DNA from: a virus
IMG/VR virus record: IMGVR_UViG_3300014838_000073
Coordinates: 1 to 26,045 of that record
DNA: 26,045 nucleotides
Strand: one strand, 5' to 3'
Shown here piece after piece: positions 8,622 to 22,751 of this stretch. Each line of letters starts with the position of its first letter. The stretch's first letter is position 1. The notes under the pieces were generated by a model, which saw nothing but the letters and a program-made list of their open reading frames with translations, made no database searches and was not told the DNA's origin. Made by a program: the position numbers and the translations under genes.

Positions 8622-9037
8622 GAAGCGTTGGGAAAGAGATTCTTAGACAGTTCAGACCAGCCTACGTGGAACATGATCGAAGGATTCTTGCATAAAGCCC
8701 CAGACTTAGTATCTATAAGCCTATTGACGTGGACCTGGACGCGGGTGGTGATTGACGCATCGACTAGCGTCTCGTTGCCAGGACTGAAGGGAATGATCCT
8801 CCAGTTGTTTTCGTCTGCGGCTAGGTATGCTTCCCTGCCTATGTGGGTAATCCTGTACAGCAACGGGCCGTTGTTTTCACTCGGTAAAGCTGTCCCGTGA
8901 AGCAACCGTCGAGAAGCCCTTAAGCCGCTCGATATCATGTTTTCAGCTGGAGCCGCACAGATCCCTAATCGGTGCTCCGCGCAGATCCCTTCCCCATAAG
9001 CTCTGTAGAACCCATGGAGGTATGGGTAGTGGGTCAC
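8603..9037 (-). CDS. Possible winged-helix protein downstream of tnpB, 144 aa
   Basis: A GTG at 9037 overlaps the tnpB stop (GTGA); MISSGLRASRR at about residue 34 is an alternative start. The segment SSGLRASRRLLHGTALPSEN, then PLLYRITHIGREAYLAADEN, has the helix plus beta-wing look of a small winged-helix DNA-binding domain (LYRITHIGREA resembles the wing strand of ArsR/MarR-like regulators). The C-terminal part (NNWRIIPFSPGNETLVDASI onward) is not recognised. If tnpB moved alone, this stretch should instead be the element's right-end/guide-RNA region, so coding status is moderate. The opposite-strand frame looks like a shadow. Confidence 0.5.
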   Translation of the reverse strand: MTHYPYLHGFYRAYGEGICAEHRLGICAAPAENMISSGLRASRRLLHGTALPSENNGPLLYRITHIGREAYLAADENNWRIIPFSPGNETLVDASITTRVQVHVNRLIDTKSGALCKNPSIMFHVGWSELSKNLFPNASKSNTR

Positions 9038-10134
9038 TTTGACCCTTCTGCCAAAACTTCGACAGCACTCCTACCAAGCGCTAAAACATTTAGTGCCGCA
9101 TTGTGATCACGGTTCAATGACAGGCCGCAGTGTGGGCACTCATGCCAGCGATCTGCAAGCCCCTTTGGTACGATTTCACCGCAGCGGCTACATCTCTGTG
9201 TCGTACCCCTTGGGTTTACTGCCACAATATAACGCCCGGCGCATTCTGCCTTGTACGAAAGTTGAAACAGAAGTTGTCCCCAAGCAGCGTCCAAAATACT
9301 CTTGGCAAGGTTTCCCTTAACCATATTTGTGATCTTCAAGTCTTCGTGCGCGATCAAGTCGTAGCGCCCAACCAATGCTTTTGAAACGTGGTGGCAGAAG
9401 TTCTTGCGGGCATCGGACATACGTTGATATGCACGCCGCGCCTGTTCTTTCGCCCTGATCCGGTTCTTGCTGCCGCGCTTCTTTCGCGCTAGGTTCTTTT
9501 GCGCCCGTGCAATCCGTTGCGCGTGCTGCCTTACGAAACGTGGATTCTGGACCTCACTGCCATCCGACAATGTAGCGAACGTGGTCAATCCAAGGTCTAT
9601 TCCGACTGGACGCGAGACAACGCACTTCTCTGGAGCAGGGCCAATATCGCACACCACGCGCCCAACCCACTTCTTGCCGTTCAGCTTAATTGTCACCTGC
9701 TTGGCTGTGCCTGTGATCTCCCGGTGTGCTTTGAATCGCACGTGCCCAAGATTCGGGATTAGAACCGAATCTCCATGAAGTCTAGGCGAGTGCCAAGCGA
9801 AAGAAGTATAGCGGTCCCTAGATCTGAAGCGTGGAAATCCGGGCTTATCGCCAGATTTGCAACGGCGGAAGAATGCTTTAAAAGCGCGGTCAACCCGGCG
9901 CAGCGGCTCACGTTGGATGTCCACTGCAATCGTGGCGAACTGCACATCCTTGCGTAATTGTGTTAACTCCGCGCACTGATCGTTGTATGTGACGCTCTTA
10001 TGTTGGAGCTTCCACGCTTCTTTCCGCTCCTGAAGACAGGCGTTATAGGTTTCCTGCGAATCGAGTAGAATCCTTGCGAAGGCTTCCTTTTGCGCTCGCG
10101 TCGGCTTCAACCGCAACTCGTAGGACCGCATCAT
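9034..10134 (-). CDS. tnpB: TnpB (IS200/IS605-type RNA-guided DNA endonuclease), 366 aa
   Basis: This is a full-length TnpB. The N-terminal part (MMRSYELRLKPTRAQKEAFA) is typical. The RuvC catalytic triad is intact: Asp180 in PVGIDLGLTT, Glu264 in IAHEDLKITN, Asp343 in NRDHNAALN. A zinc finger lies in the last RuvC segment (Cys315/Cys318 in RCSRCGE, Cys333/Cys336 in ECPHCGL). Characterised TnpB proteins use an omega RNA from the 3' end of their own gene to cut DNA. No TnpA transposase is present. The gene sits in an operon behind a 52-aa ORF (ATGA overlap) and ahead of the 144-aa gene (GTGA overlap), with its own promoter. It may be a domesticated nuclease or the remains of a mobile element. 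Confidence 0.93.
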   Translation of the reverse strand: MMRSYELRLKPTRAQKEAFARILLDSQETYNACLQERKEAWKLQHKSVTYNDQCAELTQLRKDVQFATIAVDIQREPLRRVDRAFKAFFRRCKSGDKPGFPRFRSRDRYTSFAWHSPRLHGDSVLIPNLGHVRFKAHREITGTAKQVTIKLNGKKWVGRVVCDIGPAPEKCVVSRPVGIDLGLTTFATLSDGSEVQNPRFVRQHAQRIARAQKNLARKKRGSKNRIRAKEQARRAYQRMSDARKNFCHHVSKALVGRYDLIAHEDLKITNMVKGNLAKSILDAAWGQLLFQLSYKAECAGRYIVAVNPRGTTQRCSRCGEIVPKGLADRWHECPHCGLSLNRDHNAALNVLALGRSAVEVLAEGSK

Positions 10135-10289
10135 TTTTGCTTCTCAATCGTCGTGAGGGCCAATCGACGCAGCCACTGCGAAACGGTTTCAGGAGCCACA
10201 CGTCGGGTGACGGGCTCAACTGCGGTAGGAGAGTTTTTGGTTTTGATTTGCTGCGTGTCGGGGAGGCGGGTTAGCTTTTTTGAGTTCAC
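10131..10289 (-). CDS. 52-aa ORF leading the tnpB operon
   Basis: A GTG start at 10289 (preceded in frame by TAG at 10298-10300) opens a 52-codon frame ending in TGA at 10131-10133, which overlaps the tnpB ATG. The product begins MNSKKLTRLPDTQQIKTKNS, has a Pro/Thr/Val-rich middle and an amphipathic basic C-terminal helix (PETVSQWLRRLALTTIEKQK). It is basic overall. No family is recognised. The exact ATGA overlap with tnpB and the fitted promoter and leader support translation, but no Shine-Dalgarno sequence is visible. Confidence 0.5.
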   Translation of the reverse strand: MNSKKLTRLPDTQQIKTKNSPTAVEPVTRRVAPETVSQWLRRLALTTIEKQK

Positions 10290-10297
10290 TTTAAGCT

Positions 10298-10343
10298 ACT
10301 CAGGGGCGTGTGGCGGGTCAAGCCCTGAGTTGCAGGACCCGCC
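10298..10343 (-). ncRNA. Predicted H-type pseudoknot in the tnpB-operon leader
   Basis: Two 8-bp perfect stems are interleaved: 10298-10305 pairs with 10323-10330 (ACTCAGGG/CCCTGAGT), and 10312-10319 pairs with 10336-10343 (GGCGGGTC/GACCCGCC). The order stem A, stem B, A', B' is the geometry of an H-type pseudoknot, with joining segments of 6, 3 and 5 nt. On the minus-strand transcript starting near 10378 it lies about 9 nt before the GTG of the 52-aa ORF. It is therefore placed to control translation. Confidence 0.6.
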
Positions 10344-10377
10344 CTCACAGCTAAGCACCAGGGAGCTACCCCGGTCT

Positions 10378-10414
10378 GATTGGAATCATAACCCCAATCC
10401 GGTATTCATGTCAA
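10378..10414 (-). promoter_or_regulatory. Minus-strand promoter of the tnpB operon, with operator-like inverted repeat
   Basis: TTGACA (10414-10409), an 18-nt spacer and TATGAT (10390-10385) on the minus strand form a near-consensus promoter with a start near 10378. The -10 is framed by GATTGG (10378-10383) and CCAATC (10394-10399), a 6-bp inverted repeat that could be a repressor site. It is divergent from the plus-strand GTATAAT box at 10449. Confidence 0.65.
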
Positions 10415-10448
10415 CATAAGCTTTAGGGAGAGATTTTTAACTTTCGCC

Positions 10449-10461
10449 GTATAATCTATCC
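10449..10461 (+). promoter_or_regulatory. GTATAAT promoter box, leaderless start (plus strand)
   Basis: GTATAAT (10449-10455) is followed by CTATCC and then ATG at 10462, so the hexamer ends 6 nt before the start codon and predicts a leaderless mRNA. No -35 match. It is the leftmost promoter I see for the plus-strand arm and lies about 60 nt from the divergent tnpB promoter. Confidence 0.7.
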
Positions 10462-11163
10462 ATGACCCACGCCGACCATCGTAAACTCGCCTGTAGCCTG
10501 TTGGCAGATATTGTTCCTGCCCGCCTTTGTGGAGAAACGTATCGAGAGATTGGGTCACGATTGGGCATGAGCATTAGTGCAGTTAGAAACCTAATAGTCC
10601 AATCCTCGATGAAAGAACTGATTTTGGGCTCTGTCAATGGGAACAGGGAGAAAAATGTGGACACGCGCCTTGCAGATATTTTAGCAATGCGGCGTGACCA
10701 TCAGACTTTGCAAACCATTGGTGATAAGTACAGCATCTGCCGTGAAAGAGTCCGACAGATTATCAAGCGGGCTCCAGCCGAAATGATTATTGATGTTCCG
10801 CGCCAGTCGCGTGTAAAGAAGGCGCGAATCGTAGCTTACCCGCTTAATTCCGCAAAAGTACGGAAATGGCTTGCTGAAATAAATCACGGGTATTGCTCTC
10901 GATGCCACCAAGCAGTTCCAGCAATGGCTATGCAAGCCAATAATATAGCTGCACGCCGGTGTCGTGCATGCAATACTAAAGCTCACAAGGAGTATTGCGA
11001 TAAACATATTGATCACAGTCGTGCCGTTCAGAAAGCTTGGGTAACCGCGCACCCAGACAAGGTGAGGGAATATGCTTCGAGGTGGCAGGCAAAGAACCAG
11101 GATAAATTAAAGGAATATCGGCGGGCGTATCAGGAGCGCCAGTTACAGCGGCAGCGTGAGTAG
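10462..11163 (+). CDS. Sigma-region-4-like double-HTH and zinc-cluster protein, 233 aa
   Basis: The protein has two helix-turn-helix units: TYREIGSRLGMSISAVRNLI (about 26-45) and TLQTIGDKYSICRERVRQII (82-101). The second closely resembles region 4.2 of sigma-70 factors (the ERVRQI signature), which reads the -35 or contacts the RNA polymerase beta flap. A four-cysteine cluster follows (Cys145, Cys148, Cys167, Cys170, in YCSRCHQ and RRCRACN). A charged C-terminal repeat helix (EYASRWQAKNQDKLKEYRRA) of a kind seen in phage zinc/HNH proteins ends it. It is the first gene of the plus-strand arm and predicted leaderless. A transcription regulator or sigma partner is likely; an inactive or unusual HNH protein is the alternative. 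Confidence 0.65.
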   Translation: MTHADHRKLACSLLADIVPARLCGETYREIGSRLGMSISAVRNLIVQSSMKELILGSVNGNREKNVDTRLADILAMRRDHQTLQTIGDKYSICRERVRQIIKRAPAEMIIDVPRQSRVKKARIVAYPLNSAKVRKWLAEINHGYCSRCHQAVPAMAMQANNIAARRCRACNTKAHKEYCDKHIDHSRAVQKAWVTAHPDKVREYASRWQAKNQDKLKEYRRAYQERQLQRQRE

Positions 11164-11272
11164 CCTTCCATTCCCAGAATGTTTGGCAAGAGAACAGGAT
11201 AACAAGATCGGATTCTTGTGTGCTCGATACCAAACGGGTTCCTGCGCGGTAAGGGCGAGAAACTTATAAACG

Positions 11273-11285
11273 GTATAATCTTACA
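11273..11285 (+). promoter_or_regulatory. GTATAAT promoter box, leaderless GTG start
   Basis: GTATAAT (11273-11279) is followed by CTTACA and GTG at 11286, the same 6-nt spacing seen at 8481 and 10449. No -35 consensus. This sits in the 122-nt gap after the HTH gene, which holds no other feature I can support. Confidence 0.7.
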
Positions 11286-11867
11286 GTGAACATACGTTTG
11301 GAACTGAGAGCTGAGATACGCCAGTGGCACGCGCAGATCAAACAGGCTTTACTTCAGGTGGAGAATCAGCAGCTTGCTGAGAAGAATCTTCCTCCATGGC
11401 CTCCCGGCACTATAGTCTACATTCCTGGTGAGTTTGCACAGGAGCGTCCGGGCCAGCAAACCAGCCGCGCAATCCCCGCGCCAGCATTCCAGTTGTACAA
11501 CCTTAAAGTGTGGTGTGAACGCTACTGTGTTTCACTTACCTTCATTTTGTCTACCTTACTACGCACCTATCGCTTTCAAAGACGGCGCAATCCTCTTGTT
11601 ATCACCTTGGGTCTGCCAGCTGCTATGATTACGGGGGAAACCGCCCGGCGCAGGCTTGAAGAAGCCATCATTCATGAATTCCCCAACCAGGAGAACTTCC
11701 GCGCAGCCCGGCAGCGCCAGCCAGAGCCCCCTATCAAGCACATTGACTATGAAAACCCCGCGCAGTTTGTAGCTCGTTACAATCAGGCTATATTGTTGCG
11801 GCGCAAGGCTTACGAATCCGTACCGGAATGCAATCGAAACTTCAGAAAGCTAAAGACGCATATATGA
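11286..11867 (+). CDS. Hypothetical protein, 193 aa, predicted leaderless
   Basis: The GTG at 11286 is chosen because TATAAT ends exactly 6 nt upstream. The N-terminal ~35 residues form a charged helix (LRAEIRQWHAQIKQALLQVE). A Pro-rich section follows (LPPWPPGTIVYIPG), then a central segment YNLKVWCERYCVSLTFILST that looks folded. The C-terminus is basic (NFRKLKTHI). It overlaps the next gene by ATGA. No family recognised; its place just before the helicase suggests a replication accessory role (inference only). Confidence 0.6.
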   Translation: MNIRLELRAEIRQWHAQIKQALLQVENQQLAEKNLPPWPPGTIVYIPGEFAQERPGQQTSRAIPAPAFQLYNLKVWCERYCVSLTFILSTLLRTYRFQRRRNPLVITLGLPAAMITGETARRRLEEAIIHEFPNQENFRAARQRQPEPPIKHIDYENPAQFVARYNQAILLRRKAYESVPECNRNFRKLKTHI

Positions 11868-12016: not shown

Positions 12017-13363
12017 ATGGAGCCAGCCGAGAGATGGTGGGACGACGAGGAGTTTCAAGACCGTTTGACTACGTTGCTGGTCAGCGACTACAAGACACTT
12101 AAGGACTGCGCTGGTCTTCTTACAGCCAATGATTTCAATCCGGTGAGTGGCATGAAAAATGGCCGTTCCCGTCGCATTATTGCAGGGAGGGCTCTGGAAT
12201 ACTATTCCAAGTATCACAAGCCTATCGGGTCGCTGCTCCGTGCTGACACCTTGGAGTACGCCGAGCAAATAAGCTTGGGGGCAAGCCATGTAGGGCAGCT
12301 GAAGTTGTACATGGCATACTTGTCTAAAATCGTTCCTGAATCAGCCGACGCATTGGTTGAAAAGGTAGTTCGGTTCAAAGGGCAGCGGCTAATTGCAGCC
12401 TCCGTACAGGATCTGGTTGACCTACTGAGCACCGATCAGTTAACCCCGGAGAAGTGGCGGGAGGTTAGCGCCAAGGCACTTTCAGCTACAAATGGTGGTG
12501 TTACCACGGTAAGCTTCCTCGAAACAGTTGGGGACCGCAACGCCCGGCGCAAACGGGAAGCGTTGCATACCCGCTCAATTTGGACTTTGATTGACCCGCT
12601 CGATTCCATGGTTAAAACTGTCGGCCCCGGAGAATTGGGATTGGTGCTGGCCCCTTGGAAACGTGGCAAAAGCTTCTTCCTGTTATGGCTGGCTGTAGCC
12701 TACGCGATTCAGCGCCTGAAAGTTTTGTATGTCACCCTGGAAGACCCTCGTAAGCGTGTTGAGGACCGGCTAGACTCTATCATATCCGGCGTTCCTATCA
12801 AGAACCTGCATATCAAACCGGAGACGCTTCGCAAGAAGATTGCTGCGTTTGGTGACATGGCGCAGAACATCGAAATTTACGATGGTACAGAGGGCGGCAC
12901 TACTTGGTCTAAGATTGAGCAGATATGGCTTACGTTGCGGGATAAGGGGTTCATTCCCGACGCAACCATTGTGGACTACGATGCTGAGATACGCCCGGCC
13001 CGGCAGTATAAGGAAAAACGCTTTGAGCTGGATGAGGTCTACCGTGACGGCAGGGCTTTCATGGCGCAATATAACCAGTATGGCTGGACCGCAGCGCAGA
13101 CCCAACGCGGTACACGTACGGCCAAGATTTTGACTGGGGATCGGATCGGTGAAGACATCACCAAAATTCATAAGGTGTCTTGCGCTCTGTCTCTAGGTAA
13201 GGGGGACTGGACGGACAACAGCTATTATCTCTACGTGGCCGCACACAAGAATGACATTATGGACGTGGGTTGTGAGTTGGTGCCAGATTTATCAAGGGCT
13301 CTGGTCTACGATAGGGACGCCACTTACGCAGAAGCTAAAAATCATGTTGTGGATGTGATATGA
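12017..13363 (+). CDS. RecA/DnaB-type replicative helicase-like ATPase, 448 aa
   Basis: The N-terminal ~170 residues are helical, as in DnaB-like helicases. A RecA-fold ATPase follows with Walker A LAPWKRGKSF (212-219; Ala replaces the usual first Gly), a post-strand catalytic acid in YVTLEDP (Glu242), Walker B ATIVDYDAEIRP (318-324) and a GWTAAQTQRG motif (357-365) corresponding to the DnaB/RecA glutamine sensor. It probably unwinds the phage fork, given the primase, clamp and polymerase downstream. The stop overlaps the methyltransferase start (ATGA at 13360). A phage RecA-like recombinase is a less likely alternative, because of the helical N-terminal domain and primase linkage. Confidence 0.8.
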   Translation: MEPAERWWDDEEFQDRLTTLLVSDYKTLKDCAGLLTANDFNPVSGMKNGRSRRIIAGRALEYYSKYHKPIGSLLRADTLEYAEQISLGASHVGQLKLYMAYLSKIVPESADALVEKVVRFKGQRLIAASVQDLVDLLSTDQLTPEKWREVSAKALSATNGGVTTVSFLETVGDRNARRKREALHTRSIWTLIDPLDSMVKTVGPGELGLVLAPWKRGKSFFLLWLAVAYAIQRLKVLYVTLEDPRKRVEDRLDSIISGVPIKNLHIKPETLRKKIAAFGDMAQNIEIYDGTEGGTTWSKIEQIWLTLRDKGFIPDATIVDYDAEIRPARQYKEKRFELDEVYRDGRAFMAQYNQYGWTAAQTQRGTRTAKILTGDRIGEDITKIHKVSCALSLGKGDWTDNSYYLYVAAHKNDIMDVGCELVPDLSRALVYDRDATYAEAKNHVVDVI

Positions 13364-14046
13364 AACCATACTACGACGATGGCAAGGGAATTGTAATCTA
13401 CAACTGTGACTGCCGAGCAGCTATCCTTACGCTTCCTAAAGTAAACCTGATTTTGACAGACCCGCCGTATGGGATAAATTTTAGGTCTAACTCCCGTACT
13501 GCTACTTCCAAGTTTAACAAAATTCAGAATGATGCTGTAATTGACACTGCTTGGATTGGTCAGGCTGTTGATCGTTTGGAAGACGGCTGCGCGGCCTATA
13601 TTGCAACCCGGTGGGACGTGTGGCCCTATTGGGAGCAAGCTGTGGGGGAGTTATTGCACGTTAAGGACTGTATTGTATGGTTTAAGCCCGGTGGGGGTAT
13701 GGGTGACTTGAAAAGTGGCTACTCTCCTAGCCATGAGTTTCTCATTTATGCAATAAAAGGTAGGCATAAGCTACGAGGCAAACGAATCGGGAATGTCTGG
13801 AGCGTTCCTACAGATCCTCCATCTACATACGAGCATCCGACGCAGAAGCCAGTGGCACTGATGCTGCTGGCAATTCAAAAGTCTACAGACCCTGGAGACT
13901 TAGTGTTAGACCCTTACATGGGCTCTGGCACCACTCTGCTAGCTGCTAAGCAAGCTGGTCGCCGGGCCATTGGCATCGAGATTGAGGAAAAATTCTGTGA
14001 GCTAGCGGTTCGCCGGTTAAAACAGAAGCAGGTAGCTCTTTTATGA
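13360..14046 (+). CDS. Beta-class DNA methyltransferase (N6-adenine or N4-cytosine), 228 aa
   Basis: The catalytic motif IV is TDPPYGIN (Asp34-Gly38) and the SAM-binding motif LDPYMGSGTT follows near the C-terminus (184-192), then GIEIEEKFCELA. Motif IV before motif I defines the beta class. DPPY fits methylation of an exocyclic amino group. The N-terminus YYDDGKGIVIYNCDCR is paralogous to that of the second methyltransferase at 21067 (YYDDSAGIQIYLGDCK). It starts on the ATGA that ends the helicase and ends on the ATGA that starts the 36-aa ORF. No restriction enzyme is adjacent, so it is probably an orphan protecting or marking phage DNA. Confidence 0.92.
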   Translation: MKPYYDDGKGIVIYNCDCRAAILTLPKVNLILTDPPYGINFRSNSRTATSKFNKIQNDAVIDTAWIGQAVDRLEDGCAAYIATRWDVWPYWEQAVGELLHVKDCIVWFKPGGGMGDLKSGYSPSHEFLIYAIKGRHKLRGKRIGNVWSVPTDPPSTYEHPTQKPVALMLLAIQKSTDPGDLVLDPYMGSGTTLLAAKQAGRRAIGIEIEEKFCELAVRRLKQKQVALL

Positions 14047-14153
14047 AATTAGGAATTCAACAAGGTGGTTACGCTGGAGTCACTTGGCGCAGCAATCTCC
14101 AATTCATTTGGACAGAGATACTCCGTGTTTATTACCGGATGTTTTTGAAATGA
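14043..14153 (+). CDS. 36-aa ORF bridging methyltransferase and primase
   Basis: The ATG at 14043 overlaps the methyltransferase stop (ATGA) and its TGA at 14151-14153 overlaps the primase ATG at 14150 (ATGA), so the ORF exactly bridges the two genes. The product begins MKLGIQQGGYAGVTWRSNLQ and continues with a Trp/Ile/Tyr-rich, basic helical end. It may be a small protein or only a translation relay. No family recognised. Confidence 0.5.
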   Translation: MKLGIQQGGYAGVTWRSNLQFIWTEILRVYYRMFLK

Positions 14154-15040
14154 CATTTGAACAGTCCCTTCTAAAGCGTCATATTCCCTATCGCATATCA
14201 GGTGACCGGCTCAAGGTAAGCGTGTGTTGCCCGTTCTGCCCTGGAGGGGACAATAAATTCCGTTTGGCTATCCACGTCAAACTAGGGTGGGGAAAATGCC
14301 TTCACTGTAACTGGACTCGCCGCCAAGGGGTATTTGCTGTCCTTCGGCAATTTGGCATTACTGAGGCCGTGGAAGGGTTTGATAAGTATGAGGCCGCGCC
14401 GGAAGAACGGGTTGAGCTGCCAACGGACTTCCAAACATTGACTCATGCTACTGACGACTTGGACCGGCAGGCACTTCAGTATATTTTGAAGCGAGGCATC
14501 ACCAAAGAGCAGATCCGTGACTACCGAATTGGGGTAAGCTACACCGGACGATACGCCTATCGTATCGTGTTTCCGTTATATGCAAAAGGTAAGCTAGTAG
14601 GCATCAATTCCCGCGACTTTACTGGGCACGGAGAGCCAAAATACTTAACCAGCCACGGGGACAAGTACCTCTACGGGTTTGACCCACAGGCACACACCGT
14701 AATTCTCAGCGAGGGCACCGTCAAAGCACTTCGCATCCAACAGGTCACAAAGCACAACTCAGCGGCGTTGCTAGGGCACAGCCTAACAGAATCTCAGGCA
14801 GCGCAGCTGCGTGACAGTAAATGTGAGCGGGTGATCCTGTACCCGGATATAGACAGTGTAGGCCGTAAGGGGTTCGCCAAGATTGCAGAGGACCTGGATA
14901 TGCCCGTAAGTGTTGTTTGGCCGGTGGATCAGCCTGCTGACGACGCCCCACTGGAGCAGATTCAAAACCTCTTGCTTAGGCCGGTTTCCTGGTCATTCAC
15001 CATGCGGCAAAATTTAATTGTTGGCAAGCGTGAATTATGA
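14150..15040 (+). CDS. DNA primase with zinc-binding and TOPRIM domains, 296 aa
   Basis: The N-terminal zinc site is formed by CCPFC (Cys26/27 and Cys30) and GKCLHCNW (Cys50, Cys53), as in bacterial and T7-type primases that read the priming trinucleotide. The TOPRIM catalytic domain has Glu188 in ILSEGTVKAL and the DxD of ILYPDIDSVG (Asp233, Asp235). It would make RNA primers at the fork with the helicase encoded just upstream. There is no fused helicase domain, so primase and helicase are separate polypeptides. The frame opens earlier at a TTG (14084), but the ATG at 14150, on an ATGA overlap, is the better start. Confidence 0.85.
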   Translation: MTFEQSLLKRHIPYRISGDRLKVSVCCPFCPGGDNKFRLAIHVKLGWGKCLHCNWTRRQGVFAVLRQFGITEAVEGFDKYEAAPEERVELPTDFQTLTHATDDLDRQALQYILKRGITKEQIRDYRIGVSYTGRYAYRIVFPLYAKGKLVGINSRDFTGHGEPKYLTSHGDKYLYGFDPQAHTVILSEGTVKALRIQQVTKHNSAALLGHSLTESQAAQLRDSKCERVILYPDIDSVGRKGFAKIAEDLDMPVSVVWPVDQPADDAPLEQIQNLLLRPVSWSFTMRQNLIVGKREL

Positions 15041-15056
15041 TATCATTAAAACCGCT

Positions 15057-15242
15057 ATGGCAACTGCTAAAAAACGAGATGTGGTCAGCCCCATTGCGCG
15101 GCTGACAATGGCTCAGGCACGAAAAATCCGTAGCCTGCATCGGCGCGGATGGACGCAGATGGAGCTTTCCTGGGCATACGAAATTTCCCAAACGACTATT
15201 TCCAAAATCGTCAACAACCAGATTTACCGGGGTGCGGCATGA
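15057..15242 (+). CDS. Small homeodomain-like HTH protein, 61 aa
   Basis: The protein starts MATAKKRDVVSPIARLTMAQ and carries a helix-turn-helix (QARKIRSLHRRGWTQMELSW, then YEISQTTISKIVNNQ) similar to the short HTH modules found at the end of phage HNH/zinc proteins and in small regulators. It is basic. An upstream TTG at 15018 is less likely. TATGAT/TATCAT boxes overlap at 15036-15046, so it may have its own weak promoter. A DNA-binding regulator is probable; the target is unknown. Confidence 0.65.
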   Translation: MATAKKRDVVSPIARLTMAQARKIRSLHRRGWTQMELSWAYEISQTTISKIVNNQIYRGAA

Positions 15243-15493
15243 TGACCAAGGATACAGTTGAAGCTGGTCTGTTTACGCTTTTGGTTGCGTCTGTGCTGCT
15301 TCGCTGCCTATGGGGGCATACACCGATTCGACTTCTGGTGATGACCCTCATTTTTGTTGAGTCGGTGATACAACAGGCAATCCAAAGCATCGGGGCCGGG
15401 GCTGCACACTACAGGGAAAATTTCACGGCTACCCTTTCGAGGGAACGGCGTACTATCCACGATCCAGATATCAAGATCGTTCGAAGGGCTTGA
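15239..15493 (+). CDS. Small two-helix membrane protein, 84 aa
   Basis: The ATG at 15239 overlaps the stop of the HTH gene (ATGA), followed immediately by a second ATG. Two hydrophobic segments are seen: AGLFTLLVASVLLRC (about 9-23) and IRLLVMTLIFVESVIQ (about 30-45). A polar/charged C-terminus follows (RENFTATLSRERRTIHDPDI). This is a likely two-pass inner-membrane protein. It lies within the replication arm, so it could tether replication to the membrane, but nothing else supports that. Confidence 0.6.
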   Translation: MMTKDTVEAGLFTLLVASVLLRCLWGHTPIRLLVMTLIFVESVIQQAIQSIGAGAAHYRENFTATLSRERRTIHDPDIKIVRRA

Positions 15494-15519
15494 CTCAAAA
15501 TAAGGAGAGCAAACATTCA

Positions 15520-15714
15520 ATGAGCGATACAGAGCTTCTCGACGCAATGGCTGATGCCGCCGCCAATAGCCCCCATATTCAGCGCAGCGCCGACGCCTTG
15601 CTTTTAGAATGGAACATTGTTGCTGAGACACCAGAGCTGCGTCTACGGGCAATTCGGTTTGCCTACCGAGACATTATGACTCAAATGGTTAACGAGGAGA
15701 CTGCCAACGTCTAG
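15520..15714 (+). CDS. Small acidic helical protein, 64 aa
   Basis: The ATG at 15520 follows AAGGAG (15502-15507) at a slightly long spacing of 12 nt. A TTG at 15490, overlapping the previous stop (TTGA), is an alternative start that adds ten residues. The product (MSDTELLDAMADAAANSPHI onward) is helical and acidic, with a conserved-looking tail RFAYRDIMTQMVNEETANV. No family recognised. Confidence 0.5.
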   Translation: MSDTELLDAMADAAANSPHIQRSADALLLEWNIVAETPELRLRAIRFAYRDIMTQMVNEETANV

Positions 15715-15724
15715 CTCCCCGGTT

Positions 15725-16720
15725 GTGCTCATTGACGCCATGAACCTTGTGTTCAGGATGCACTTCTCTCATCAGCATCTTAGCGACAGTTACGATAGAC
15801 CTACTGGTGTCATCCATGGTGTGTTGAACACCATACACAACTTGCGCGAGTCTGTCTCTAAGAAACTGGTAGTGGTGTGGGATCATGGCATCCCGGTTCT
15901 TAACGCCGCCAAACCGCACAACTGGCGGGAGAGCTTCCTGGATGGATACAAAGCGACCCGTATCCACAACAACGAGGAATGGCCTAAAATTGTAAGCCAA
16001 TTGAAGCCACTTCATGACGCTATCAACATGCTTGGGTACAGCAACAGGGCGGTAATGGGACTGGAGGCCGATGACACAATTGGCATTCTGGCGCATGAGA
16101 TTCCTGGTGACATTTTGATTCTGTCTACCGACAAGGATTTCTACCAGTTGCTTAGCAACCGCGTCAGCATTTTAGCCCCCAAAAAGTCCGGTGGGAAATT
16201 CCTTACTATTACTCAATCCGGCGTGGAGAAAGAGTTTGGCATACCCATACAACTGTGGAGCCGCTATCTGGCCCTGGGTGGTGACAAGAGCGACAATATT
16301 AAGCCGATGAAAGGCATGGGGCCAAAAACCGCGCTTAAACTGGTGAAGGCCGGTGTCTCCCCATATTTGGAATGGGAGGACCAGCCGGAGGACTTCCGCG
16401 CCAAGAATGAAAAGTACAAACCTGTTTGGCGTGCAATTCAGAGGTCCTACATGGCCGCTGACCTACCCCACACTCGTAAAGATTTTCGCTTTGCCGGTGC
16501 GTCCCTTGATTTCTCTAGCCTTGATGGTTCGGCAACGCAGGGCTGGCTTGATAAACAGTTAAGCAAGCATAACTTTGAAAAGTTCTGCGCCGTATATGGT
16601 TTGAATTCGCTCCTATCCTTGAGTGGGAGCTTCTTTACTGGAGAACAACCGTGCCCCGCCCTGAGAAACGTAATCCCGACACCGCTCCCAGTCAGCAAAA
16701 TGAGGACGCCGCTTGTCTAG
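15725..16720 (+). CDS. 5'-3' exonuclease / flap endonuclease (PIN-like FEN family), 331 aa
   Basis: Metal-binding and DNA-binding motifs of the FEN family are in order: VLIDAMNL (Asp4), VVVWDHG (Asp53), GYKATR (74-79, basic arch), EADDTIG (114-120), LSTDKDFYQL (134-143), GGDKSDNIK (185-193) and the helix-hairpin-helix GMGPKTALKL (197-206). It would remove RNA primers and flaps, the role of the Pol I N-terminal domain, which the phage polymerase here lacks. The start is a GTG at 15725, very close to the first beta-strand, so a slightly earlier non-ATG start cannot be excluded. The last 70 nt overlap the sigma-like gene in another frame. Confidence 0.9.
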   Translation: MLIDAMNLVFRMHFSHQHLSDSYDRPTGVIHGVLNTIHNLRESVSKKLVVVWDHGIPVLNAAKPHNWRESFLDGYKATRIHNNEEWPKIVSQLKPLHDAINMLGYSNRAVMGLEADDTIGILAHEIPGDILILSTDKDFYQLLSNRVSILAPKKSGGKFLTITQSGVEKEFGIPIQLWSRYLALGGDKSDNIKPMKGMGPKTALKLVKAGVSPYLEWEDQPEDFRAKNEKYKPVWRAIQRSYMAADLPHTRKDFRFAGASLDFSSLDGSATQGWLDKQLSKHNFEKFCAVYGLNSLLSLSGSFFTGEQPCPALRNVIPTPLPVSKMRTPLV

Positions 16721-17238
16721 CTCATAAACACTTATCCTGCATCGCTCAGCGTTGCCTGAGCTACTGGAAATGCCTGCCGACTCACGTAAAGTCTTCCTAC
16801 GATTTGGATGACATGATCAGTGATGTAGTGATGCACGTCTGGAAAGTGCAGGCTAGATATGACCCCAAAAAATCCAAGGAGGTGACTTGGGTGTATTGGG
16901 TGGCAGATCGTAAGTGTCAAACTATCACTGCCCGGTTCCGTGTGCAGAAGCGAACTATGGAAATGGTTGAAGGTGACGCCCTAACAGGTGATAGCCAAAA
17001 GTCTACGGTATTGGACAGGTACGCCGCTCCCAACAGTAGCGAGGAGCTTCGTGCCGCCAAAGATGCAGTCGAGCACGTGATCGAATTTGGTTCAGATGCA
17101 ACGCGAGACTTCCTGGATCGGCTGTTCAACGGTAAGCCGGTTAAGACTGTCCCGGCTTATGAGTTACGAGCAACGGCCAAAGCCTGTGGTGCCACCTATC
17201 GGGATTTCCAGCTGGTGTATCGCGGGGTGGTGGCATGA
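16651..17238 (+). CDS. Sigma-70 region-2-like protein, 195 aa
   Basis: Residues about 50-95 (DLDDMISDVVMHVWKVQARY, then EVTWVYWVADRKCQTITARF) look like sigma-70 region 2, the part that binds the RNA polymerase beta-prime clamp and the -10 element. An obvious region 4 is missing; the C-terminal ~60 residues (RATAKACGATYRDFQLVYRG) might be a weak HTH. The GTG start at 16651 follows GGAG at 7 nt and overlaps the exonuclease gene by 70 nt. It may be a phage-encoded sigma subunit that redirects host polymerase to phage promoters. Its possible region-4 partner is the 10462 protein. Confidence 0.65.
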   Translation: MPRPEKRNPDTAPSQQNEDAACLAHKHLSCIAQRCLSYWKCLPTHVKSSYDLDDMISDVVMHVWKVQARYDPKKSKEVTWVYWVADRKCQTITARFRVQKRTMEMVEGDALTGDSQKSTVLDRYAAPNSSEELRAAKDAVEHVIEFGSDATRDFLDRLFNGKPVKTVPAYELRATAKACGATYRDFQLVYRGVVA

Positions 17239-17679: not shown

Positions 17680-18714
17680 ATGAAAATATCTATCGAAGAA
17701 GCTCGTGCTGCGCTGGCCGTTTGTTCCAACGTAGCCGTTAGCCCTAGTGCCGAGAGTAGTCAGTATGTCCGCTTGCGGGTGAATAAGTCGGAACTCACTA
17801 TGACGCTGACCGGGCTGATTTGGGCTGAGGCAAGAGTGACCGGAAATGAAGGTGGTGTCTGGACAGCGTTTGCAGAGCGCCGGGCATTTAAGGCATTCCT
17901 GGATACGGCAACCGGCAAGGATCTGGAGCTGTTTTACAAAGATAAGCTCGTACTACGATCTGGGCAACGACTTGAAGTTGCGCCACACACTCCGATTACA
18001 GGCTACGAGTCATGGGTGCCGAAGAGCGTAATCAGCTTAACGGCAGAGCACAAGATCGCGCTTAAGACTGCGGTCAAATATCTGCCCGACATGGCCGGAT
18101 CGGATCATGTGAATGCTATTTGGTTTTCCAAAGAACTCGGTGTTGTTTCCACCGATACGCTTTTTATGATGCGCGTGGGAGGGCCGGTTACGTCTGATTT
18201 CTTCCTTCCGGCGTCCGTTGCTAGTGTACTGGCAAACGACGGGCAGGTTGGGGTTGATACTAGTGGTATAGGGGCTGTGCTCAATAATGGCGTTGTCTAT
18301 GAACCATTGGTAGCTGACCTGGACAAGTACCCCAAAGATGGATGCGTCAAAATGTTGACAGCGGGGGGTAAGGTCAAGCCCCTGGCTACGGTCAAAGCCT
18401 GCGATCTACTGGAAGTACTGCGAACAGCCAGTATGTTTTTGCTCGACAACAACGCGGTAGTTACTATGGAAACAACCAAAGGGAGGCTGAGCGCCACGGT
18501 CAACTTGACTACAGGTAAGTTCCAACGGACCATTGCTGTGATCGGCGCGGGGCCGGGGCTCGACGGGCCTACCAACTGGTTGGCAAAGAAGATTATCCCC
18601 TGGTTGGAGTACGTCGTGTTTGCGAACGCCGCCGCAGAAGTCAAGATTGCTAAAATCCCTGGTGCTGGTGTTTTAAGAGCAGACGCCAGCACTCTGGTTT
18701 TCTCAGACTTGTAA
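17680..18714 (+). CDS. Beta-sliding-clamp-like (DnaN-like) protein, 344 aa
   Basis: Length and pattern fit a beta-clamp: repeated beta-alpha-beta units such as SQYVRLRVNKSELTMTLTGL (27-46), DHVNAIWFSKELGVVSTDTL (about 142-161) and LLEVLRTASMFLLDNNAVVT followed by GRLSATVNLTTG. The protein would encircle DNA and hold the polymerase on the template. Several segments are only weakly DnaN-like, so this is a fold-level call. It lies between exonuclease and polymerase genes, where a processivity factor is expected, and has its own promoter box. Confidence 0.65.
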   Translation: MKISIEEARAALAVCSNVAVSPSAESSQYVRLRVNKSELTMTLTGLIWAEARVTGNEGGVWTAFAERRAFKAFLDTATGKDLELFYKDKLVLRSGQRLEVAPHTPITGYESWVPKSVISLTAEHKIALKTAVKYLPDMAGSDHVNAIWFSKELGVVSTDTLFMMRVGGPVTSDFFLPASVASVLANDGQVGVDTSGIGAVLNNGVVYEPLVADLDKYPKDGCVKMLTAGGKVKPLATVKACDLLEVLRTASMFLLDNNAVVTMETTKGRLSATVNLTTGKFQRTIAVIGAGPGLDGPTNWLAKKIIPWLEYVVFANAAAEVKIAKIPGAGVLRADASTLVFSDL

Positions 18715-19258: not shown

Positions 19259-21070
19259 TTGGGGAGGCTTCGGTTGCGGTCTAACTTATTCGGCCAGCGC
19301 GTCACGCACAGAGGGGAAATTCTTGGTTGTGATGTCTGCCCACTCGATAAATCCCCTGGCATCCGCAAGGTAAAGGGGCTGGTACGGATCAGTAAGCAAA
19401 AGGCAATGCTCTGGGCGCAGTGCCCTGGCGACCACGAGAATGCTAAAGGGCTGGAATTGGTGGGGCCTGCCGGGGACTTGTTGTGGCGAACGCTTAGACC
19501 TTTCGGGCTAGCGCGTCCAGATTTCGATGTGCAGAACGTTGTACGGTGCAGGCCGACAGATGCGGCTGGTAGAAACCGCGACCCGGAGCCGCGAGAGCTT
19601 CAGTGTTGCTCTGTATTTAATGACGACGCACTTAAACTTAATGCTGGCAACGCTCGCGTCCACGTGATCCTTGGTGATATAGCCGCCACGCAGCTTTTAG
19701 GGAAGGGTTATAAGAAAGACGCGCCGGTCCAATGGTATGAACCGTGGGACTCCTACGTTGTTCTTAACTGGCATCCAAGCTATATATTACGGCAGGGCGG
19801 TGAGAATGCCGGGTGGGATTACCTGACATGGCGTGATCGTTTTCGGGCCGTTCGCGCCATCATTGACTACCCAAGGCGTTGGGGCTACGTCAAGTCACGA
19901 GGCTACAAAGCAGTTCGTACCCTAGCTGAGTTTGACGAGATGGAAAAGGCCCTTCGGTTGGAGCAGTCCCGTAAGCGCAGAGTCAGCTTCGACATTGAAG
20001 ACGGCGTTGTAGACGGCCAGCCGGTCATGCTAATAGCAGGGTTTGGCACCGGCCACTATGAGGACCCGAAGGACTGGAAATCCTGGAAGGGGCAATCCTA
20101 TTGTGTGGTGCTTGACCATCCCCAAGCTGGATATGAGCCCGCGCATCTGGAGGAGCTAAAACGTCGCACACGAAAACTGGTTGAAGACGAGAGCTTGAAA
20201 AAGAGTCTTCAGAATGGTTCTTACGACGGTGTTCAGTGCCAGCAGTTACTGGGGGCTAAGCGGCTGGCAGGCTATGATTACGACACCCAGTATGGGACCT
20301 TTATTCGATTTAGCTTCCTGCGTAGTTGTGGCCTGGAGCCGCTGACCTACCGATTTTTCCCTGAGTTTGCCGACTACAAGGACACGGTGATGGAGTGGTC
20401 AGGCAACTTCGCCAACGCACCCATTGACCGGCTGGTGCTTCGCAATGGCGGTGACTGCGAAATCACGCAGATGCTGGAGCAGCGGTTTAGCCCGCAGATC
20501 AAACAGCCACTGGTTAAGGTTTATGTCCATGCGGGCATGACGCTCGACAAGATGGAGAACCGTGGCCCGATACTCGACTGGGAGAACTGGAAGAAGGCCA
20601 AGGCAGTTGTACCCGACATGATTAAGCGGATAGACAGCATGCTGCTAGACATCTGCGGTAACCCCAACTTTCGATGTTCCTCGGACATCGACGTTGCTTG
20701 GCTGATTTATGACTATCTAAAGCTGGCTAAGCCGGATGAGAACGGTAAACGGCCAACCGGCAAAGAAATCCTGGAAAATCTGATGGAGAGTACTGGCAAT
20801 CAGGTGCTGGAGCTGATAATGAAACGCCGGGCTCTGGGTGTCCTGGATTCAACCTCGCTCAATGGGTATGCCAATAGCGCCAGACTGCACAGCGATGAAC
20901 TGAGAACGATCTGGTGGCTAACAGGGGCTATTACAGGCCGTCTACGCAGTGGTAAGGGGCGTGACTCTGTTGAGGAGGGAATTATCAACTTCCAAAACTT
21001 CGGTAAGAACCCCTTGTTGCAAAATCTTTTAGTTAGCGACAGGAACTGGCGGGAGGCAATGAAAGAATGA
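19259..21070 (+). CDS. UDG + 3'-5' exonuclease + N-terminal half of split family A DNA polymerase, 603 aa
   Basis: Residues 1-210 are a family 4-like uracil-DNA glycosylase: Fe-S type cysteines Cys24, Cys27, Cys97, Cys116/117, a motif-A region AQCPGDHENAKGLELVGPAG and the HPS motif WHPSYIL (172-176). The usual GEAPG is AQCPG here, so the catalytic acid is changed. Residues 240-390 are a DnaQ-type exonuclease (Asp245 and Glu247 in SFDIED, Asn319 and Asp323, YDTQYG, DYKD). Residues 400-603 are the polymerase thumb and palm start, ending after TGRL (559-562). The protein stops before palm motif A, which is in the 21873 gene. The TTG start follows AGGAAGG; an in-frame TAA lies upstream. UDG-polymerase fusion is known in SPO1-type phages. 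Confidence 0.88.
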   Translation: MGRLRLRSNLFGQRVTHRGEILGCDVCPLDKSPGIRKVKGLVRISKQKAMLWAQCPGDHENAKGLELVGPAGDLLWRTLRPFGLARPDFDVQNVVRCRPTDAAGRNRDPEPRELQCCSVFNDDALKLNAGNARVHVILGDIAATQLLGKGYKKDAPVQWYEPWDSYVVLNWHPSYILRQGGENAGWDYLTWRDRFRAVRAIIDYPRRWGYVKSRGYKAVRTLAEFDEMEKALRLEQSRKRRVSFDIEDGVVDGQPVMLIAGFGTGHYEDPKDWKSWKGQSYCVVLDHPQAGYEPAHLEELKRRTRKLVEDESLKKSLQNGSYDGVQCQQLLGAKRLAGYDYDTQYGTFIRFSFLRSCGLEPLTYRFFPEFADYKDTVMEWSGNFANAPIDRLVLRNGGDCEITQMLEQRFSPQIKQPLVKVYVHAGMTLDKMENRGPILDWENWKKAKAVVPDMIKRIDSMLLDICGNPNFRCSSDIDVAWLIYDYLKLAKPDENGKRPTGKEILENLMESTGNQVLELIMKRRALGVLDSTSLNGYANSARLHSDELRTIWWLTGAITGRLRSGKGRDSVEEGIINFQNFGKNPLLQNLLVSDRNWREAMKE

Positions 21071-21876
21071 AAAACAACAAGCTCTACTATGATGATAGCG
21101 CTGGCATTCAAATTTATCTAGGCGATTGTAAGGAGATCCTGCCACGCTTACCCGACTCTAGTATAGACTTCATATTTTCTGATCCACCCTACGGCCACAA
21201 CAACAACAACAACGGAGACTTAATTCAACGGTGGGAATCCGCGCTTGGCCGTGGGCCTCATGGTGAAGCCCGTCCGATAGCTAATGATGGCGTAGACGCC
21301 AACGATCTTATTCAATGGTCATTCAAAGAGTGGAAACGCTTGCTTAAGCCAGGATCGTGCTGCTGCTGCTGCGGCGGCGGCGGCGGGCCTGACCCTCAAT
21401 TTGCCAGATGGTCTTTATGGCTTGATAATGTCATTGGATTTAAGCAGATGGTAGTGTGGGACAAAGGACCGATGGGAATGGGCTGGCACTATAGGCGTTC
21501 CTATGAGACGGTACTTGTAGGGGAGAACCCAGGTGCAGCTTGTAAATGGTATGACACGAGCAATAAGATTGAAAACATCATTCGGCGCATCCCCAAAATA
21601 ATTCCTACTAAGAATGAGCACCCAACTTTGAAGCCAGTAAACCTTGGAGCACATTTTATTAATCTCCACACACAGCCAAGAGAGCTGGTACTTGACCCAT
21701 TTATGGGATCTGGAACTACTCTAGTTGCTGCTAAATATCTTAACCGAGCTGCCATAGGGATTGAGATGGATGAAGGCTATTGTAAAGAAGCAGTAAAACG
21801 ACTCAAGGCAACACAGCGGTCATTGCTGGTAGAAGTTACTTCAGTCAAACCATGCAAGTCAAGGCCGCTGATATGA
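21067..21876 (+). CDS. Beta-class DNA methyltransferase inserted in the split polymerase, 269 aa
   Basis: Motif IV SDPPYGHN (Asp39-Gly43) precedes the SAM motif LDPFMGSGTTLV (209-220), the beta-class order. It shares the YYDD..GIQIY N-terminus with the 13360 methyltransferase but has a longer central target-recognition region (about 50-190), including ARPIAND and DKGPMGMGWHYRRS. A run of five Asn (45-49) and a Cys5-Gly5 run (98-107) are encoded by AAC, TGC and GGC repeats. From memory, related phage methyltransferases also carry a Cys/Gly run, so this may be functional. Both ends overlap the polymerase halves by ATGA (21067, 21873). No nuclease domain is visible. Confidence 0.92.
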   Translation: MKNNKLYYDDSAGIQIYLGDCKEILPRLPDSSIDFIFSDPPYGHNNNNNGDLIQRWESALGRGPHGEARPIANDGVDANDLIQWSFKEWKRLLKPGSCCCCCGGGGGPDPQFARWSLWLDNVIGFKQMVVWDKGPMGMGWHYRRSYETVLVGENPGAACKWYDTSNKIENIIRRIPKIIPTKNEHPTLKPVNLGAHFINLHTQPRELVLDPFMGSGTTLVAAKYLNRAAIGIEMDEGYCKEAVKRLKATQRSLLVEVTSVKPCKSRPLI

Positions 21877-22751
21877 ACCCCCTCAACCTTATGGTGTTTC
21901 TGACGGCTGACTTCAGCCAAATGGAGATTCGCGTCCTGGCTGAGATATCCGGCGACAAGTTGCTGATCTCCCAGCTTCAATCCGGTCAGGACATACACTG
22001 TCTGATTGGCAATACCCTGACCGGCCTGCCTGTAGATCGTATCAAATCCGAAAAGAACCTCCGCAAGATGATTAAGGGTCTTGTATTTGGCATCATCTAT
22101 GGTAAGGGCCGCAACAACCTGTATCCCTATGTAGTGGCTGGCATCCGCCATGTCGATGGTAAGCACGCCGATCTGACTGGGATCAGCGCTCAGCGGCTGG
22201 CTAAACTGTATGATGCTTTCTTTGCTAAGTATCTCGGCGTCAAGGCATACATTGACCGGATGCACCGGATGGCGGTTGATCTTCATTACGTGGAAACCAT
22301 GTTTGGGTTTCGCCGGGAGATTCGAGAGAATGATGAGCGGGGAACATTTTTCCTTAATCAAGCCGTGAACAGTCCAATCCAGGGATCTGCTCACACCTTT
22401 TTGTTAATTGCACTGGCGCTACTAGATATCAAGCCACGCACCTATAGCCTACTGCAAAAGTGTCTCATGGAGGAGCATGATGCTTTGTTTTTCAGTGTCA
22501 GACTAGGAGATTTGGTTGCAGCCTTCACACAGCTTAAAGCACTGTTTGCAGACGCCTATCGGTACGCACAGGTTAAGTTCAAAATTACATTGCGTGTTCC
22601 CCTGCTAACTGAGGCATCAGCTGGATTCACTATGGGAAGCATGGTGGCTTATGACGGGCAGGCAGTTGAAGAGTTTCTTCCGGCTTGGCGTGCTAAGCAG
22701 CGTGAGGTGGAAGCGAAGGATTGGGAAGATTTGATGCCACAGGTGGTGTAA
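21873..22751 (+). CDS. C-terminal half of split family A DNA polymerase (catalytic palm and fingers), 292 aa
   Basis: Palm motif A is FLTADFSQMEIRVLAE with the metal-binding Asp13. The fingers O-helix (motif B) is RKMIKGLVFGIIYGKG, with the conserved Arg, Lys, Phe and Tyr-Gly. Motif C is CLMEEHDALFFSV, where the catalytic Asp is present but the usual following Glu is Ala (HDA rather than HDE). The product must associate with the 19259 protein to form a working polymerase, since neither half has all the palm. The ATG at 21873 overlaps the methyltransferase stop (ATGA); an ATG at 21852 gives seven extra residues. The end ...DLMPQVV is typical of a complete C-terminus. Confidence 0.9.
   Translation: MNPLNLMVFLTADFSQMEIRVLAEISGDKLLISQLQSGQDIHCLIGNTLTGLPVDRIKSEKNLRKMIKGLVFGIIYGKGRNNLYPYVVAGIRHVDGKHADLTGISAQRLAKLYDAFFAKYLGVKAYIDRMHRMAVDLHYVETMFGFRREIRENDERGTFFLNQAVNSPIQGSAHTFLLIALALLDIKPRTYSLLQKCLMEEHDALFFSVRLGDLVAAFTQLKALFADAYRYAQVKFKITLRVPLLTEASAGFTMGSMVAYDGQAVEEFLPAWRAKQREVEAKDWEDLMPQVV

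Follow-up and report, generated by a model that had tools for sequence, protein, structure and literature searches.

Several phage enzymes are encoded in two pieces with another gene between them. In the T4-like Aeromonas phages 44RR and 25, the family B replicative polymerase is made as two polypeptides, gp43A and gp43B; the halves from phage 25 co-purify and are active, and it was proposed that the gene may have been split already when another gene invaded it, the invader being a seg homing endonuclease gene or untranslated sequence (PMC2988022). Homing endonuclease genes that are regarded as the cause of the break also lie between the halves of NrdA (mobE, phage Aeh1) and of the T4 topoisomerase (mobA) (PMC2988022). 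Polymerase genes may also be fractured by split inteins with an endonuclease gene between them, as in MIJ3 polymerase B (PMC6892783). A split DNA polymerase has been published for Methylophilales phage MEP401, and the authors thought that the gap might be an intron (PMC10580990; OP830906). Here we describe a viral stretch of 26,045 nucleotides (nt) (IMG/VR record IMGVR_UViG_3300014838_000073, positions 1 to 26,045, referred to below as the window) in which a family A polymerase gene with an N-terminal uracil-DNA glycosylase (UDG) domain is divided just before palm motif A. A complete beta-class DNA methyltransferase (MTase) gene lies between the two parts, which we call polN and polC.

The window resembles the gp43A/gp43B system in encoding a replicative polymerase as two polypeptides, but the polymerase belongs to family A and the gene in the gap is a DNA MTase without an endonuclease domain. 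As with NrdA and the T4 topoisomerase, a free-standing gene separates the halves of what we infer to be a working enzyme; however, this gene is non-homing and most likely did not cause the break. The fractured polymerase gene with a gene between its parts is shared with MIJ3 polymerase B, whereas the intein halves that flank the break there are absent from the window joint. MEP401 and MEP402 also have a family A polymerase whose break lies after the TGRL...QN segment and before motif A, with a gene between the halves and the arrangement kept across the phage group (PMC10580990; OP830906). That enzyme differs in having no UDG domain and in belonging to another polymerase family, its gap holds an open reading frame (ORF) of 77 amino acids (aa) and unknown function (an annotated ORF of equal length in MEP402), and MTase, dCTP deaminase or ThyX cargo is not described there. 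Pol I of Mycobacterium phage NoShow and bacterial Pol I (Klenow) contain homologous domains but are unsplit, and the window halves align on either side of a single point in NoShow Pol I. Split family A polymerases are therefore already known; their recurrence and their swapped non-homing cargo appear to be undescribed, and we found no paper in the literature describing a UDG-polymerase fusion family.

The explanation that we favor with considerable confidence is that the family A DNA polymerase of the window consists of two subunits, that its joint is a recurrent gene slot and that the MTase is cargo. In this model the polymerase chain is broken in a length-tolerant loop before palm motif A, polN (UDG, exonuclease and thumb) and polC (palm and fingers) are translated apart, and the two would then associate. 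The stop/start overlap would let another gene sit between the halves with neither half disturbed. In this way the joint would serve as a slot in which genes come and go, the MTase being its present occupant.

Organization of the polN-MTase-polC locus

The locus consists of the following features.

19274..21070, + strand: polN, with the UDG domain (PF03167), 3′-5′ exonuclease, thumb and the N-terminal part of the DNA_pol_A domain (PF00476), ending TGRLRSG...NWREAMKE
21067..21070, + strand: left joint, an ATGA stop/start overlap at the edge where the next gene begins in relatives
21067..21876, + strand: slot gene, a beta-class N4/N6 DNA MTase of 269 aa (PF01555, 3.3e-29), of distinct G+C content at third codon positions (GC3; see below)
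21873..21876, + strand: right joint, an ATGA overlap with no upstream Shine-Dalgarno (SD) core found
21873..22751, + strand: polC, 292 aa, with palm motif A TADFSQMEIR, fingers motif B RKMIKGLVFGIIYG and motif C EEHDAL

A first-pass annotation of the sequence had described a polymerase that is split ahead of palm motif A and whose halves enclose an intact beta-class MTase, and both the ORF list and Pfam searches bore this out. In polN, Pfam identified the UDG domain (1.7e-14) and positions 6-123 of the DNA_pol_A model, while polC matched positions 152-376 (1.5e-38); the thumb/TGRL segment and motifs A, B and C of family A are all present across the two proteins. The MTase contains SDPPYG and, later, DPFMGSGTT, which is the beta-class motif order. 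The polN frame closes at the TGA at 21068-21070. As annotated, the three genes occupy three different frames and each overlaps the next by a 4-nt ATGA, and both polymerase frames are interrupted in the gap. This organization supports the earlier view of two separate polypeptides and tight translational packing.

One feature of that annotation, initiation of polN at TTG 19259 where the longer ORF begins, is probably incorrect. The alternative TTG 19274 is preceded six bases upstream by the SD sequence GGGGAGG (19261-19267) and yields the N-terminus MRSNLFGQ, which matches MKNLFNQ of the related 40-kb viral contig L003. For these reasons TTG 19274 is probably the polN start codon. The SD core of the MTase gene sits within polN. 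Because no SD core was found in the scanned stretch upstream of polC, translation of polC is probably coupled to that of the MTase through the ATGA overlap, which would place the MTase within a coupled string of three genes.

Position of the break in the polymerase fold

Residue 8 of polC aligns with V700 of E. coli Pol I and D13 with the catalytic D705. The break corresponds to about residues 697-700 in E. coli Pol I numbering, between the thumb/TGRL segment and motif A. An AlphaFold2 model was built for the whole relative L073 with the window and relative halves in its alignment; its mean predicted local distance difference test score (pLDDT) was 88.8, its predicted template modeling score was 0.87, and Klenow was the best structural match. 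In the model the joint is predicted to map to residues 612-618, between two short helices and right before the motif A strand (623-630), and model confidence falls to a block mean of 83 there. Since the linker at this position varies from about 18 to more than 60 residues in whole members of the family, the loop tolerates changes in length. For comparison only, Insert 2 of Pol theta is a palm insertion that contains R2254 and lies upstream of the catalytic D2330 (PMC9962433).

Split and whole relatives

Members of the UDG-polymerase family were collected from the viral_contigs database with hand-made degenerate patterns, NSPIQG(S/T)AH and WWxxG..TGRL, and all loci were then searched with profiles. 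When viral_contigs was scanned with polN and polC as single sequences or pairwise profiles, L003 was the sole relative recovered, and genome_contigs yielded none. The pattern search of genome_contigs returned mostly Pseudomonas loci, with 0 of 30 loci matching the polymerase profiles, and a plasmid search returned only bacterial-type Pol I relatives of low identity.

Eleven members are split at the joint (the window, L003, L061, L063, L069, L072, L074, L077, L084, L086 and L089). Unsplit homologues, for which the first-pass annotation had suggested a database search, were found in 15 cases: L062, L064, L065, L066, L067, L068, L070, L071, L073, L079, L082, L083, L087, L088 and L090 are whole across the joint, although some of these contigs are truncated away from it. 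As to the suggested search for the same three-gene order, ten relatives share the split but carry other genes, or none, in the gap. Thus, polN and polC derive from a single ancestral gene, of which intact homologues occur in L073, L070, L062, L079 and other relatives. The window combines the N-terminal UDG with a helicase-primase-exonuclease-clamp-polymerase gene order, and this order is shared in part or in full by L003, L086, L084, L089, L073 and L077.

L003 is 58% identical to the window in polN and 62-63% in polC, and it is broken at the same residue. In L003 an MTase gene of its own directly precedes polN. The window thyX follows polC, whereas that of L003 lies inside the gap. Neighboring genes have therefore swapped places while the split persisted.

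A maximum-likelihood tree of both halves placed the split members in two groups. The window, L086 (its nearest relative), L084, L003 and L089 form one group (support 96/92) that adjoins the whole L070 and L073, and L077, L072, L074, L061, L063 and L069 form the other (support 100/99), which adjoins the whole L062 and L079. Forcing all split rows into a single clade cost 202 log-likelihood units and was rejected by the approximately unbiased test (p-AU 4.3e-88). One old split followed by several re-fusions, instead of independent splits, is compatible with this test alone but needs more steps.

A third set of split polymerases occurs in the MEP401-like lineage of deposited phages, in a different polymerase family. 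The first half of the MEP401 polymerase ends in ...NLQNFDGEIKTLFLSRYGE and the second begins MILNADAKALEWV, the same point relative to motif A. The gap of ctOsX528 contains an R67-type dihydrofolate reductase gene (PF06442, 2.7e-22), and that of ct2os315 contains seven genes including one for a cytosine MTase. Among the genes that separate the polymerase halves in the deposited genome MW202796 is one for a cytosine MTase. In Alcaligenes phage QDWS535 there is nothing in the gap and the halves overlap by 1 nt. The polymerase is whole in HTVC033P and HMO-2011, which are relatives of this lineage.

Contents of the joint

The gaps of the ten split relatives contain the following.

L003: ThyX, a MazG-type gene and small ORFs
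L089: three ORFs, the last an SNF2 helicase-MTase fusion
L084: a 64-aa ORF
L086: no gene; WRQAL-stop is joined by ATGA to the start of MKDVSDLL
L063 and L069: dCTP deaminase (DCD), then different ORFs
L061: ORFs of 99 and 160 aa
L072: a 188-aa ORF
L074: a 112-aa ORF
L077: 149 nt; the 66-aa ORF there may not be real

Exchange is directly visible in L063 and L069. The two are 82% identical in polN and the deaminase gene up to 2 nt beyond the deaminase stop codon, and 88% identical in polC from 6 nt beyond its start, while the DNA in between is unrelated. Unrelated DNA between conserved flanks indicates that exchange took place at gene borders. Over the compared blocks (L063 3355-7619 and L069 90-4025, oriented), synonymous divergence (dS) was 1.75 for polN, 0.35 for polC and 0.24 for the deaminase gene. 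Because dS differs between the polymerase halves, recombination inside this block is likely.

The name given to the locus in the first-pass annotation hinted that the MTase had split the polymerase gene. This does not agree with the relatives, as those split at the same site hold other genes and L086 holds none. The GC3 of the MTase gene is 0.46, compared with 0.61 for polN and 0.56 for polC, and is the lowest among the replication-region genes measured. Related MTases, up to 69% identical to that of the window, were found in 52 viral contigs, and in 0 of the 52 does the gene adjoin a polymerase of the UDG-polymerase family. Together with the empty L086 joint, the low GC3 and the occurrence of relatives away from the polymerase argue that the MTase is most likely passenger cargo and not the cause of the split. 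Since the split is common to the whole clade, the MTase gene most likely entered a pre-existing stop/start joint or replaced another gene there. The MTase had also been called unusual as an intervening gene; this holds in detail, but the L089 helicase-MTase and the MW202796 cytosine MTase occupy gaps as well. We also observed that the MTase contains a loop, PG-CCCCCC-GGGG-PDPQFARWSLW, whose Cys run followed by a Gly run is kept in 49 of the 52 related phage loci (L004-L055).

SD cores were present at 8 of 10 next-gene starts and 9 of 11 polC starts, compared with 14.5% at random positions, as expected of any real gene start. The proposal that the conserved Trp-Arg codons (TGGAGR) form a built-in SD sequence predisposing the site to splitting is thus a weak one, the more so as split members themselves vary in whether they use AGR for the Arg next to Trp.

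Function of the halves and alternative explanations

The split halves retain the Asp of motif A, the R-K-F-Y-G frame of motif B and the His-Asp of motif C. At the position of the Glu in motif C of Pol I (HDE), all members scanned have Ala, Ser, Asn or Gln (HDA in the window). As whole members share this replacement with split ones, it does not reflect decay. In the L063/L069 pair, the ratio of nonsynonymous to synonymous divergence (dN/dS) was 0.062 for polN and 0.022 for polC, so both halves are under strong purifying selection in this one pair. By analogy with gp43A/gp43B of Aeromonas phage 25, polN and polC most likely associate into one working polymerase.

Several points weigh against our model. 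The dN/dS values come from a single pair of relatives, and synonymous sites are saturated in comparisons with the window. All close relatives are metagenomic contigs. The empty L086 joint is one small indel away from an open frame, and a frameshift error in that one sequence is possible, although its start codon matches that of L003. Moreover, the L086 joint may be empty by ancestry or by loss, so that change in the window's clade may have run in either direction.

A broader proposal, which we put forward tentatively and hold somewhat short of even confidence, is that phage family A polymerases carry a recurrent insertion slot for genes in the loop ahead of motif A. The polymerase would have been broken there independently at least three times, with the halves serving as subunits and with cargo that is enriched in enzymes of dNTP supply and DNA modification and translated in step with the polymerase. 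A related refinement of the two-subunit model is that the slot is functional, such that gap genes are expressed in a fixed ratio with the polymerase and act on its substrate or product. The identified occupants are suggestive, being mostly enzymes of nucleotide metabolism or DNA modification (ThyX, MazG, DCD, R67 dihydrofolate reductase and MTases). However, such genes are abundant in the region anyway, thyX being outside the slot in the window and inside it in L003, several occupants are of unknown function, and the gaps of L086 and QDWS535 are empty. We therefore consider a functional slot unlikely, if worth weighing.

It is improbable that the halves form no joint polymerase, with polN acting alone as a UDG/exonuclease and polC being a relic or acting with another protein. 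The UDG and exonuclease domains could work alone, and the window, L003 and L084 have Arg in place of the Tyr of exonuclease motif III. Nevertheless, no split genome seen has one half without the other, thumb and palm motifs are retained, purifying selection is strong in the one testable pair, and the window, a 26-kb fragment record, showed no further polymerase.

We give slightly less credence to the possibility that the MTase itself split an intact polymerase gene in the style of a homing endonuclease, thereby creating the two subunits. This would account for an MTase that fills the whole gap with 4-nt overlaps and has a GC3 unlike that of the polymerase halves. It is strongly disfavored by L086, L084, L003 and L089, which have the same split without the MTase, the nearest relative having an empty gap. 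In addition, none of the annotated slot genes showed a homing endonuclease domain, and those of relatives matched no homing family.

Phage polymerase genes often contain introns or inteins. Within this family, L003 carries a complete intein in motif A of polC (9798-11549; AADQ/C...N/SQIEVR, with slashes at the borders) and three whole members, L066, L067 and L079, carry inteins at N/TPIQG. Rejoining of the window halves by a group I or II intron or an intein to produce a single polymerase is nonetheless highly improbable. The MTase ORF fills the gap edge to edge, leaving no space for a ribozyme, and no Rfam RNA was detected in the window or ten relatives at gathering thresholds, a search that introns outside the Rfam models would escape. 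Consistent with the earlier annotation, intein-type flanks are absent; polN ends ...WREAMKE, polC begins MNPLNLMVFLTADFSQ, and Pfam detected no extra domain. Furthermore, the gap sequences are unrelated among most relatives and absent in one. Least credible of all is an assembly chimera or sequencing error, since although the window is a single metagenomic record, the split recurs at the same place in ten relatives, the two window halves resemble their L003 counterparts to an equal degree (58-63%) and the overlaps are gene-like.

If the two-subunit model is correct, repeated breakage of an essential replicative enzyme at one position in its structure is possible, and genes come to be exchanged at the break with no homing endonuclease involved. 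The whole, split-empty and split-with-cargo members would constitute a natural series for studying assembly of a two-chain polymerase, and the joint would offer a ready cut site for engineered split polymerases. For annotation, a polymerase half next to an unrelated gene need not signal a pseudogene or an intron.

Neighboring genes

Two features upstream of polN belong to the replication region.

12017..17238, + strand: replication block common to relatives, with helicase, (MTase1), primase, a separate 5′-3′ exonuclease and a sigma70-r2-like protein
17680..18714, + strand: protein with a predicted beta-sliding-clamp fold, in the syntenic replication block upstream of polN

The protein encoded at 17680-18714 had no PHROG or PDB sequence match. 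When it was modeled with AlphaFold (pLDDT 87), the fold resembled that of bacterial beta sliding clamps (best E 6.6e-18, template modeling score 0.77, 13% identity). Orthologues of this putative clamp lie upstream of the polymerase in L003, L084, L086, L089 and L074, which suggests pairing of a DnaN-like clamp with a family A polymerase.

Within the replication block, a second beta-class MTase gene (13360-14046; GC3 likewise low, 0.48) belongs to the same PHROG as the slot gene (phrog_67) and overlaps the helicase gene by 4 nt. The 5′-3′ exonuclease, which is an N-terminal domain in bacterial Pol I, is encoded by a separate gene (15725-16720), as it is in L003 and others. The gene at 16651-17238 encodes the protein resembling sigma-70 region 2 (PF04542, 2.6e-7). 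Elsewhere in the window, a lone IS605 OrfB/TnpB-like protein (OrfB_IS605, Cas12f1-like TNB) is encoded on the − strand at 9034-10134.

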